Origin: Telmatactis stephensoni
Taxonomy: Eukaryota > Cnidaria > Anthozoa > Actiniaria > Isophelliidae
NCBI GenBank assembly: GCA_029948255.1
Contig: JALIZF010001828.1
Span: 582,001 to 646,000 of the forward strand
Reading direction: 5' to 3'
DNA length: 64,000 nt
Part shown: positions 54,901 to 60,234 of the stretch, one piece after another
Layout of the letters: each line of letters opens with the position of its first letter
Position numbering within the stretch: position 1 is the stretch's first letter
Translations under genes and position numbers: made by a program
The notes under the pieces: model-generated
Databases searched by the model: none
What the model was told of the DNA's origin: nothing
Seen by the model: the letters and a program-made list of their open reading frames with translations, nothing else

Positions 54901-57900
54901 AGAAGGCGGTCCTAAATCAAGAACAAGACTAACATTCCAAGGGGCCGATTGTAGCAGCCATTCTAAGATAAAGAAGGATCAGTCCAAAGTGTCGATTACA
55001 GCAGTCTCCAGCCGAATAGAGGAGCCATTTCAAGCTCAAAATCAATATCATTCGAGGTGTCGATTTTAGAAGACGGTCCTAAATCAAGAACAAGAACATT
55101 CCAAAGGTAGCCATTCCAAGATCAGGATAATGATATTTCAAGTTGCAGATTATAGCAGCCATTCCAAGATCATCAGGAGCATTTCAAGGAGTCAATTGCT
55201 AGCAGCAATTTGAAGATAAAAAGCGTGGTCATTCGAACTGAAGGTGCCGATTAAAAAAGCCATTTCATAGTTAAAGTCAAGATCAATTCATGATCAAGAT
55301 ATAGCCGTCCATTCCAAGAGGAGCAATTTCAAGATCGCAGCAAAATGAAGATCATTCCGAGGCATGGAGAAGCTATTTCAAAAGCCAAATCAAAATCATG
55401 CGAACATTCCGAATAGAGTAGCCATTAGAAAATCAAAATCAGCGCCATTCCAAACAGCCGATTAAGAGGAGCCATTTCAAGCTCAAAATCAAGATCATTC
55501 CGAGATGTCGATTTTAGAAGACGGTCCTAAATCGAGAACAAGATCATTCCAAGGGGCCGATTGTAGCAGCCATTCTAAGATAAAGAAGGATCACTCCAAA
55601 GTGCCCATTACAGCAGTCTTTCCAGCCGAATAGAGGAGCCATTTCAAGCTCAAAATTAAGATCCATCCGAGGTGTCGATTTTAGAAGACGGTCCTAAATC
55701 AAGAACAAGAGCATTTCAAGGTGCTGATTTTGGCAGCCATTCCAAGACCAAGTTAAGATCATTTCATAATCAAGAACAAGATCATTCCAATTGCCTACTA
55801 TAGAAGCCACCGAAGATGAAGATGTCGTTCTTGGTGAAAACCGAAAATTCCTTCTTCTGCTTCAAGATGACACTGGCAGCACATTTGGTGAAACGTCAAA
55901 CCTACTCAGTTCTAAGAGGACCACAAGTTTCATGCACTATTGATAGTGCTTTTGGATGTAGTGGAGCTATTTCCCATTGCACCGTAATGTATTTGTTGAT
56001 TGACTGCTTAATCAGTTTATTGTTTCTTTGTTGTCAGTAAATGCTATGTTTGTTCTCGATGTTCCTGTTATGTATTTTTGTCATGGATGTTCACCTCCAC
56101 TGTTTACACTCAATGCTTTCTTATTATTGATGCATGTTATATTAAATACTCACAATTTTCCATTATTTTGCATTGCTCTGTTATGTCTAAAGTAGGTAGT
56201 CGTAAGGGTTAAATGGGATGAAATGGTAGTCGTCATGTGTCGGATAATGTAAAAATCCCTAAAGCATGTAATCGTTTTTGTAGGTCAATCTCTTGACTTA
56301 ATTTCAGTATTTTTACAATTTTTAAAACTTAAATATTACCTTAAGGCCAACACCAATACTAAGAACATCATTACATTTGTCAGTGGACTTATAAAAAGAA
56401 GAGGAAATATAAACCAAAGGTACTGTTTAAAACCTAAACCGAGAGAGACCTTCCTTTACAACACGGACCCCAGTTAAAGAACAACATAAAAATAAATTTA
56501 AATGAACTACAGGGTTGTACTAAAGTAATGTGAGTTTACTGTGTGTCCTACTCTTAACATCACTTAAATTTACTTGCCATTAATATGTTGCTAACCAAGT
56601 AACATCTGTGAACAGATTTAACCGAGCAAATCCCGGTCTTGGCAAAGTTCCTCGTATCCCAAATCGTGGTTGTGTAAGCTACTCAGCCGGAAGTGGGAAA
56701 ACAGTCGATCGAGTAAAGATCCGCGCCAAATCTGTGTCATTTGGTGAAGGTGATACTGTTCAAAAAGAGAGGTCACAGAGACACTATGAAGCTGTTAGAG
56801 CCACTCTTAAACAAGCAGCCGAATCAAGCTATGGAACAATACAACGACTTGTACAGCAAAAGAAAAACAAAGAACCTATTTATGCTGAGATCACTAATCT
56901 GGCGAATTCTGCTAGCAAAGGTGGCGATAACCTGCGTTTTACGGAATACAGATCCAACCAGGGCACACTACAGCGACCTGTTACCTACGTATGAAATGTG
57001 CAGCACTGACTTTGGTATGTCCACATTACGAAAGAACAAATCCACTCCTGATATAACCCCACAAATGACAGATCCAACATACTCCGCGAGAGTACGGAGC
57101 ACAGCACGGCATCAGCAGAGGTTACCGTTACCTGATGAGGTGCAGCCAAGGCCGACTTCATTGCCTGTTACAAACCTTTACCATGAAGGCCTTGGTTATG
57201 GTACAGACCGATTGCAGAGACCAGTGGATGGAGACTTCGACCCAAGCACAGTAGGCGCGGATGCCACAAGTACTATCGATAGACAATCCAAGAACCGTCC
57301 ACGTCGATCTGCCACAGCCCATGAATGTAACATAGAGGATGCTGTGCTGCAAAGACCCACTTCATCGTCTGTTACAAACCCTTACGGTGGCACCCTTGAG
57401 CGATTGCAGAGACCAGTGGGTGGAGAATTGGACCCAAGCACAATGAGCGGGTATGGTACTATAGAGAGACAATCAAAACAACGCCCTCGTCGACCTGCCA
57501 CAGCCCACGAATGTAACATGGAGGATGTTGTGCTGCAAAGACCCACTTCATCGTCTGTTACAAACCTTTACGGTGGCACCCTTGAGCGATTGCAGAGACC
57601 AGTGGGTGGAGAATTGGACCCAAGCACAATGAGCGGGTATGGTACTATAGAGAGACAATCGAAACAACGCCCTCGTCGACCTGCCACTGCCCATGAATGT
57701 AATATGGAAGATTACTTCGCTGTTGAACGAAACAGGAAAGCAAATGCTGATTACTTCGGTGCTTTGCAGACACAGGGTGCAGAAGTGCGTCACCCTGGTA
57801 TTCCAAATGGATATCGAACTGCAAGTTATCGGTTGGCTGTCACAAGTCAAAGACACAGTAAAGTACTGGCTGCTCTACCATTCAAGAAGTACGAAACCAT

Positions 57901-60234
57901 CTGTGAATCCAGTCCAGAAAGTTCAGACGAATCCTCTTCACCTAAAGTGGGTTTGACATCAATTTCACAAAAGAAGAAGTCCAACATACAGAATGACGAC
58001 TATGTTAGCATGGAAAACCTTACACATCTTTTATCAAAAAGAGCGAGTTACAATGTAGTCCAACAAGACCAGTATCGACAGACACCAGTACCCCTTCCTC
58101 AAAAAAGTGCCTTCGACTATTTCCCAGGACAAAGATTTGATGATCAGACCAAAGAAGTCGACAAACTTAATGAGATTATCAAAACTCCTCTGAAAAGCAT
58201 CCTGAAGAACCACGGAAAGAACCAGGAAAGTGGGACATCCCAAGAACTTCCAAGTGGGACATCTAAAGCACTTCTACCAAGTACAAAGGCTGCAACTCCC
58301 AACGGTGCTAAAGTTTCTACAGTAGAAAAGAATGGAATTCTATTGACTTCCTTTCCTGTAGATGAAAGTGATGATGGCGTTGGTGGAAGGAGTTCATATG
58401 ATTTACCAGACAAGTTTCAAGGTAATATCGTCCATCACTCAGCATTAGTCAATCATCCAAGTTGTGTAACACCTCAAGCACCCTGCAAGCTCCCAATCAG
58501 CTCCATCAAAGCAAATCCTGTCGGTTTCCTGGACAGCCCAGATTCGGATGGGAAATCTTGGCCAGCGCCTCCACCACCCCTTGATTGTGCTGTTCAATCA
58601 AGTTCCACCTCGTCTGGACTTATCGATAGCACAGCAGCAACATCTGGGCCAACTAATGGCACTACAGCGCGCACACCTAGGAGACCTGCTCCACCAGTTC
58701 CTAAGAAAGTTGTTTCACCAAGAAGAACGGAATCCACCATTGAAGCAACAGCTGAACTTGATAAGAAAACCAAGAGGGTAAGCAAGAATGAGCAGCCTGG
58801 AAGCGGTGAACTGCTAGAGTATTTAAGACGTATAGCACAGCATGGCGTGGAAAGGTCTCCAAGTAGAAGTTCGTTAGACAGCGATGCCTTAACACTTGAC
58901 TCTGAATGGTCTACCGATATTAATCACAACACCCACTACTCTGAGGATGACTATTTTAGTGAGGACGATGATGATGAATTCGATGATGATTTTGATGATA
59001 GTGAGAATGATGATAACGAAAGGTGAGCGTACGAAAAAAGAAATAAAGAATAAAAATTTAACCCCTTCCTCAAACGAAACCCCTCGCCCACAAATAAAGA
59101 TAACACCACCAAGCCCTTGTATCCAAGATGCTTTGCGAGTTGTGTCTGTGTCAAGCAAATTTGATCGTTAATCATACTTGAAGCCAACAAATTAAACAAT
59201 CAAACGCAACTGAAAACAACCAACCAACAAAAAATAAGAAAATCAAAAAAAGAATTGTAAAAGAGAAGAGAACAAGTGTGAACAAATCCTTAGCACTAGG
59301 ATATGATTTCAATAGCCGACTTCCGAGAGTTTACCACATACAAAGGTATCAAGACGAGGCTACGTGCATAAAGCTCAGTCATTCGTAATAATTCAAAAGT
59401 TTTAGCACATAGCCTTGTTCTAAATCCTTTGGATGTGGCAGATGAAGCATATCTCGCAACAGGACTATTCAGTGTCTTTTTGATCGAGTGATAGGCAGCT
59501 TAAATGATAAACTGCCCGATAGTTGATAACACAAGTACATTTGTACATACATGTCATTTGAGATCAACTCTTATCGTATCGCGTGATTGAAAACAACCAA
59601 TAGGTTTCTGTCATTCAAAGTCGTGACAGCAATCAGTCATAACGGATGGTTGTCTGGATGTTTAGACAATAACGTCATCGTAGTTCCAGGTGGATGCACA
59701 AGTAATTAGCATAAGTTAAAGCAGAAAGGACGCGCAATAAAAGTCAGTGGTGTGTGTCTTTGGCGATCGATTGTTAGTCATATAATTGACATAAATGACC
59801 GTACATTCATAAATTTACCGAAGAGAGATTATTAGATCAAATATTCCGATTGACGTGGTTGCGTCATTCAGGTCAGGCTCTGTCACGTGACCTTCGCGCA
59901 AAAGCATCATGGGTACCCCTAAGTGTTTGACTGGAGTTTATTGTGATAAAGAACATAACTCATCTAGCGTAACATATTTAAACGATTTTAAATATCGGAA
60001 CCAATTAACTGTACACCGTTGTTGTAAGGGTAGGTCCATTGTAGTCACCACTTTCACTAGACATCAGTGCACTGTGTCCCTATATAAACGTGAATTGAAA
60101 GACGTGTGTGCTCTTCCTTCATTCTGTTCGACTATTCTCCTCCCTTCCCTGTCATTTCACATCACTCACCATGTGACTCCCCTTTCCCATTCTTCCGTAA
60201 TATAAAGCATGGCTGTTTCTACACTTAATTGTCC

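Follow-up and report, generated by a model that had tools for sequence, protein, structure and literature searches.

We examined a 64,000-nucleotide stretch of the genome of the sea anemone Telmatactis stephensoni (contig JALIZF010001828.1 of assembly GCA_029948255.1, positions 582,001 to 646,000 of the forward strand; hereafter the window). It carries a long-tailed class I myosin gene of the MYO1E/F type in which a giant exon, exon 29, lies between the exons for the TH2 region and the SH3 domain. Exon 29 is probably a conserved alternative cassette exon of this anthozoan gene, the inclusion of which would give the myosin a tethered SH3 ligand together with docking sites. Its splicing as a cassette appears well supported by independent protein models: in Nematostella vectensis, a homologous insert stands at the same two junctions (GVCG/FNRMNP..EEEE/SVQRETSKK, slashes marking the junctions), and in Actinia tenebrosa, the flanking exons are joined directly (GVCG/VQRDSSRKK). 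An earlier note, made from the letters of the window, had proposed a skippable exon between TH2 and SH3 and a search for it in related genomes; these two models, one with the insert and one without it, support the proposal.

Structure of the gene and its probably skippable exon

The encoded protein is ordered as motor, IQ, TH1, TH2, insert exon, and SH3. Searches against Pfam identified a class I-type motor over exons 1-16 (Myosin_head, E value 1.4 × 10−190) and placed both Myosin_TH1 and SH3 above the cut-off, and a proline- and basic-rich TH2 was recognized by eye in exon 28. The protein predicted when exon 29 is skipped shares 952 of 1087 aligned residues with A. tenebrosa isoform X2. As TH2 comes after TH1 and an SH3 domain stands at the C-terminus, the gene appears to encode a long-tailed class I (MYO1E/F) myosin, an assignment made from Pfam domains and identity to an annotated myosin-Ie-like protein. 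Vertebrate MYO1E and MYO1F have the same order of motor, IQ, TH1, TH2, and SH3, but TH2 joins SH3 directly in those proteins, whereas here an insert of about 800 residues lies between them. We know of no comparable insert in vertebrate MYO1E or MYO1F.

Exon 29 is directly preceded by AG (before 56616) and directly followed by GT (after 59022). When we determined the junction phases codon by codon, exon 29, read in its main frame, was found to end in phase 2 (..GAA AG), as exon 28 does, so that exon 30 completes the codon of either exon and skipping of exon 29 keeps the frame. The predicted product has about 1,089 residues when the exon is skipped and about 1,891 when it is included (1091 and 1893 if the stop sign and one doubtful X residue are counted); the sizes in the earlier note were recovered alike when recomputed from the gene model. 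Its claim of phase symmetry held in part: both ends are indeed in phase 2, but the assembled length of 2407 nucleotides is not a multiple of 3 and the exon contains an internal frame break. The exon is phase symmetric only if that break, at 56989-56995, is an assembly error.

To compare splice sites within the gene, we ranked them using a leave-one-out matrix. The exon 29 donor ranked 4th of 30, and its acceptor, which ends in AG but has no pyrimidine tract, ranked 27th of 30; the acceptors of exons 9, 10, and 25 ranked even lower. Weak acceptors are typical of many regulated exons, and that of exon 29 is compatible with regulated inclusion without being proof of regulation. Alternatively, exon 29 might be constitutive in corals and skipped or lost in some anemones only, a lineage-specific insert with no regulated switch; such a history would fit the observation that Nematostella yields the included form and Actinia the skipped form, with neither yielding both. 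We consider this unlikely, as under RefSeq conventions the label isoform X2 of both models implies further isoforms, and as the acceptor is weak and the flanking phases permit skipping.

The two introns that flank exon 29 contain simple repeats. Intron 28 (3885 nucleotides) holds a degenerate tandem array at 53290-55800, of which Tandem Repeats Finder reported pieces within 53290-54977 with periods of 25 to 104 base pairs; the extension to about 55800 was made by eye. Intron 29 includes a pure TGT trinucleotide run of 20.7 copies at 60235-60296.

Table 1. Positions in the window of the myosin gene, its exons discussed here, and features of exon 29
Feature	Positions	Strand	Basis or remark
Long-tailed class I (MYO1E/F-type) myosin gene, 31 exons	37445..62063	+	Manual model based on splice sites and reading frame
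Motor exon 17	46452..46533	+	One base too many for conserved frame
Motor exon 21	48827..48972	+	One base too many for conserved frame
Exon 28, TH2, ends in phase 2 (..SGVCG; ..TGT GG)	52481..52730	+	Junction residues common to P0005 and P0006
Exon 29, cassette insert, 2407 nucleotides as assembled	56616..59022	+	Homologous to P0001-P0005
YAEI (frame A)	56881..56892	+	In 3 of 6 sequences
Frame break; frame A TGA at 56992, then frame B	56989..56995	+	Seven bases where P0001-P0004 have one codon
186-bp (62-codon) in-frame tandem repeat, 2.7 copies	57209..57712	+	RPRRPATAHE motif
DDYVSM, YxxM tyrosine motif	57995..58012	+	DDYVxM in 6 of 6
WPAPPPPL, EVH1-ligand-like	58559..58582	+	WPAPP in 6 of 6
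RPAPPVPKK, SH3-ligand-like	58682..58708	+	PPVP then K within 0-2 residues in 6 of 6
Conserved short helix SGELLEYLRRIAQH	58802..58843	+	AlphaFold2 model residues 604-617
Acidic end EDDYFSEDDDDEFDDDFDDSENDDNE, up to the donor	58943..59022	+	
Exon 30, proline-rich linker and first part of SH3	60896..61074	+	Gene model, Pfam
Exon 31, rest of SH3 and stop codon	61987..62063	+	Gene model, Pfam

Relatives of the insert and its frame break

We searched for related proteins with three queries and scored, for each, the candidates sharing the most words with it: the insert plus SH3 (7,991 candidates), the insert region (7,979), and the end of TH1 through TH2 to the start of the insert (968). The first query returned four homologous open reading frames (ORFs), P0001-P0004, of 588-807 residues, one of which is tagged jgi and three lgn, a tag that we take to denote Logan assemblies. 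These are 38-53% identical to the window's insert in the alignment and 30-43% identical in BLASTP local alignments. Three of the four begin with xNRFNR, the letters that the window gives when its acceptor (..GTG AAC AG/A) is read through into the exon; the start of the fourth falls within the exon. Each of the four has ER at its end, and the window, when read on through its donor, gives GAA AGG TGA, that is, ER and a stop. The shared start and the shared ER end make them look like unspliced genomic exons, and we infer that P0001-P0004 are just that, bounded by the same splice sites as exon 29.

The insert-region query returned a single protein, N. vectensis LOC5501785 isoform X2 (RefSeq; P0005), which has 1944 residues and includes motor, TH1, and SH3. 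The third query returned P0005 and A. tenebrosa unconventional myosin-Ie-like isoform X2 (P0006; 1087 residues), which has the same flanking exons and lacks the insert exactly at the 28-30 junction. P0005 contains the same exon with both junctions and retains PPVP-K, WPAPP, DDYVxM, and the acidic end; it differs from the window in that its insert has 959 residues rather than about 800, it is named an uncharacterized protein, and the N-terminus of the model has other sequence in place of the start of the motor. An insert-bearing myosin is already in RefSeq, then, as an uncharacterized model, and we found no published description of a cnidarian MYO1E-type insert in titles and abstracts, with longer result lists covered in part. 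To judge from these relatives, exon 29 is real and conserved, and is shared beyond T. stephensoni.

The relatives also bear on two other interpretations of the open frame. First, as P0001-P0004 are stand-alone ORFs, two of which (P0001 and P0004) have M where the shared start lies, the frame could be a gene of its own, without introns, inside the myosin gene. We attach almost no weight to this interpretation. The window has GTG at that point and no upstream ATG in frame A, the frame entered from exon 28, back to the previous stop, and bacterial gene callers write GTG starts as M; furthermore, the ends of the frame coincide with splice sites, and Nematostella joins the region in frame to both neighbors. 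Second, exon 29 could serve as an alternative last exon: if its donor were left unused, the stop formed by the donor (AGG TGA) would end a protein consisting of motor and scaffold without SH3. The stop does overlap the donor in the window, and ER closes all four ORF relatives at the aligned position, but an arginine followed by a stop is a by-product of a GTGAG donor in that phase, the donor is strong by the ranking above, and Nematostella is spliced on to SH3. The prospect that exon 29 is a last exon is therefore very slim.

The frame break within exon 29 calls for an explanation of its own if the exon is to be read as a cassette. Frame B has no stop between 56717 and 59026. A codon-usage score derived from 1013 codons of the other exons prefers frame A in the first three 120-nucleotide blocks of exon 29 and frame B in every block from 56976 onward, though the lead of frame B rests on low scores in the blocks from 56976 (−2.6), 57096 (1.4), 57936 (1.9), and 58416 (0.1). 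A hidden intron at the break was ruled out, as merely seven bases lie between conserved residues. Motor exons 17 and 21 of the same gene also depart from the conserved frame, and four HSP70 loci of the same assembly consist of overlapping same-strand pieces in different frames (C24:1334651-1336466, C35:689254-691070, C123:12580-14397, and C24:1342795-1344542), with one HSP70 copy being whole (C123:7117-8934); the HSP70 frames were derived by hand from the listed coordinates, and some of the broken copies may be pseudogenes. The breaks in the motor exons and the broken HSP70 genes together make assembly indels the likeliest cause, and the frame breaks in exons 17, 21, and 29 are likely all of this kind.

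The other possibility is that these are true mutations that have disrupted this copy of the gene, or exon 29 in the individual concerned. Three frame breaks do fall within one gene, and no second full copy of exon 29 turned up for comparison: a DNA search of the assembly (483.5 Mb, 1782 contigs), in which the best candidates were scored, yielded one full-length match to exon 29, which was itself, and four short matches (53-72 bases), each lying in the sequence that encodes the acidic end. Nevertheless, we regard true mutation as very unlikely, given that in two of the three cases a single base interrupts a motor exon that is otherwise highly conserved, that the four HSP70 loci are similarly broken (though possibly in part pseudogenes), and that codon usage in exon 29 looks like that of coding sequence both before and after the break.

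Conserved motifs and a candidate tethered SH3 ligand

Identity between the window and Nematostella is high across the myosin domains, with 399 of 456 residues identical in the part of the motor compared, 194 of 242 in IQ-TH1, 52 of 78 in TH2, and 70 of 84 at the SH3 end; over the insert, it is 27%. Most of the insert drifts fast while short pieces persist. We counted thirteen motif patterns in six sequences (the window and P0001-P0005); the patterns were written after reading the sequences, and the PPVP pattern was framed after reading the MYO1F study discussed below as well. Present in all six were PPVP(x)0-2[KR], PxxPx[KR], [FYWL]PxPP, YxxM, DDYVxM, E[ED]DYFS, RPRRPAT-like, YGT[LIVM], and GYRTxSYR, and the more specific forms WPAPP, PPVP(x)0-2K, and the acidic EDYFS end were each kept in all six as well. 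[RK]xxPxxP and LK[SG]ILKN were found in five sequences, Y[AVG][EDN][IVLM] in four, and FxDxF in three, and we dropped the last, an AP2-type motif, on account of this count. In terms of their meaning, [FYWL]PxPP corresponds to the EVH1 consensus and YxxM to a site for SH2 domains. Out of 500 composition shuffles, none had the pattern in all six sequences for 11 of the 13 patterns, one did for YxxM, and three did for [RK]xxPxxP; likewise, none of the 500 had PPVP(x)0-2K, WPAPP, DDYVxM, or EDYFS in all six. These shuffles ignore common descent, arguing against a composition effect and saying nothing on motif function.

The polyproline SH3-ligand-like segments and the acidic end that the earlier note had described were thus both found throughout the six sequences. 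Its tyrosine motifs, YAEI and YVSM, fared unequally: the DDYVxM pattern is general, but YAEI lies in frame A and YVSM in frame B, so that the two can be joined only across the break. Its picture of a motor fused to a signaling scaffold may be drawn from these motifs. The 186-base pair repeat is an expansion relative to P0001-P0004; as two of its units match at 179 of 186 positions, the copy number may differ among individuals.

We modeled the frame B part of the insert (677 residues, six-sequence alignment) using AlphaFold2, which gave a mean predicted local distance difference test score (pLDDT) of 40.9 and a predicted template modeling score of 0.19, with 538 of the 677 residues below a pLDDT of 50. 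The insert is predicted to be disordered; low pLDDT from so shallow an alignment is weak evidence, and the composition agrees. No Pfam match at E values up to 1 was found for the two insert pieces and the four ORF relatives (0 of 6 proteins), nor any PDB match at E values up to 10 for the C-terminal insert piece in sequence and profile searches. The conserved short helix falls in the two best ten-residue blocks of the model (mean pLDDT 70 and 76), and L9, Y12, L13, and A17 of the alignment of this region (A2) are invariant in the six sequences.

The PPVP-K motif resembles a known ligand. The SH3 domain of human MYO1F is reported to bind the PPVPANK motif of SH3BP2 (3BP2) via D1056, D1058, E1059, W1078, N1093, and Y1094; this interface is an AlphaFold3 model, and deleting the motif or its lysine weakened the pull-down while residual binding stayed (PMC12772958). 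We found the six contact residues to be identical in the window, Nematostella, and Actinia proteins when counted from the C-terminus, with the end of MYO1F taken as 1098. The PPVP-K motif lies about 145 residues before SH3 in the window protein and matches the known preference of a MYO1F-type SH3 (PPVP(x)0-2K compared with PPVPANK); the exact lysine spacing of PPVPANK was found in Nematostella only (PPVPAGK). In SH3BP2, the motif is carried by a separate adaptor and bound in trans (PMC12772958), whereas here a like motif stands within the myosin itself.

We propose that skipping of exon 29 would give an ordinary long-tailed class I myosin with a free SH3, and that inclusion would separate TH2 from SH3 by a disordered tether about 800 residues long, which bears a MYO1F-type SH3 ligand, a W-P-x-P-P ligand of the EVH1 type, a YxxM site that SH2 domains could bind, and the acidic end. 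In the simplest mechanism, the tethered PPVP-K would engage the myosin's own SH3, either in cis or between molecules, and the long form would then be self-masked or assembly-linked. The EVH1-like, YxxM, and acidic pieces would draw in further actin and signaling proteins; partners of the Ena/VASP type might be recruited, as might PI3K-type partners upon tyrosine phosphorylation, and the weak acceptor of exon 29 could be the control point. What the sequences and protein models show are the motif, the SH3 residues, and the exon junctions; from there we infer binding, masking, partners, and regulation of the long form.

Several observations weigh against a conserved cassette with these properties. 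The forms with and without exon 29 are known from automatic protein models, one form per species (Nematostella in, Actinia out), and the support for splicing of the exon comes from genomic sequence and protein models. As assembled, a transcript including exon 29 would terminate at the TGA at 56992. The insert was found within a myosin in P0005 only, with no further cnidarian long form among the candidates scored, and no protein joining insert to SH3 was found among the 7,991 candidates of the first query, both being weak, word-prefiltered negatives. YAEI and LKxILKN are not present in all six sequences. Finally, PPVP lies upstream of WPAPPPPL in Nematostella and downstream of it in the other five, possibly reflecting turnover rather than one retained site.

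The C-terminal part of the insert might have a role in actin nucleation. Next to its conserved short helix, on the C-terminal side, comes a strongly acidic stretch in which aromatic residues are conserved, and the two could act like the CA region of Arp2/3 activators, making the long form a fungal-type actin-nucleating myosin I. In WASP-type activators, CA is the region that binds Arp2/3 (PMC3762189). Nucleation by Arp2/3 is promoted by the type I myosins of yeast, and the fungal type I myosins Myo3 and Myo5, which share the motor and the TH1, TH2, and SH3 tail, are linked to Arp2/3 (PMC12325611). For the insert, we give this role a small chance. No WH2-like partner was recognized by eye, with no model-based WH2 search made, and the PDB searches at E values up to 10 gave no match by sequence or profile. 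Known Arp2/3 activators carry a conserved tryptophan in the acidic motif; here the motif has phenylalanine, F65 and F69 of A2 being invariant, with no tryptophan at these positions in any of the six sequences. The acidic stretch also precedes SH3 and is not at the protein end, unlike in fungal Myo3 and Myo5, whose acidic region follows SH3. A role with Arp2/3 could coexist with the proposed SH3 tether.

Neighboring features and possible biological meaning

Elsewhere in the window, we noted a 352-residue open frame with a FAM221A/B domain (7382-8440) and a 382-residue open frame with a galactosyltransferase domain (PF01762; 10563-11711). A search of the whole assembly for the GFP family gave 30 matches, 15 of which cover the middle of the profile (about 58-136), with several clustered; the loci lie on contigs C162, C373, C659, C18, C145, C474, C79, and C1114. 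For an exon at one of these loci (L025), the best structure matches, among the best 60 of 312, are named Dronpa, Azami-Green, and the like, which are proteins of corals. The clustered mid-profile matches suggest a multi-copy GFP-like family in this assembly, to which haplotig duplicates may contribute.

Much of the function of MYO1F has been attributed to adaptors recruited by its SH3 (PMC12772958). We tentatively suggest, as an idea that may well prove wrong, that the giant exon of hexacorals is a switch by which a plain tether between membrane and actin becomes, within one polypeptide, a scaffold for actin assembly that is open to tyrosine phosphorylation and regulated by its own SH3, a cis counterpart of the adaptors of vertebrate MYO1E/F (SH3BP2, CD2AP, and the Ena/VASP type). 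If this is true, the adaptor layer, comprising an SH3 ligand, an EVH1-type ligand, and YxxM, could be built into a myosin and placed under the control of splicing, and Nematostella would lend itself to studies of how class I myosins regulate themselves through SH3. Corals acquire their symbionts by phagocytosis. As MYO1E and MYO1F act at phagocytic cups (PMC7177449), a phagocytic setting would be worth considering for the exon 29 splice switch.

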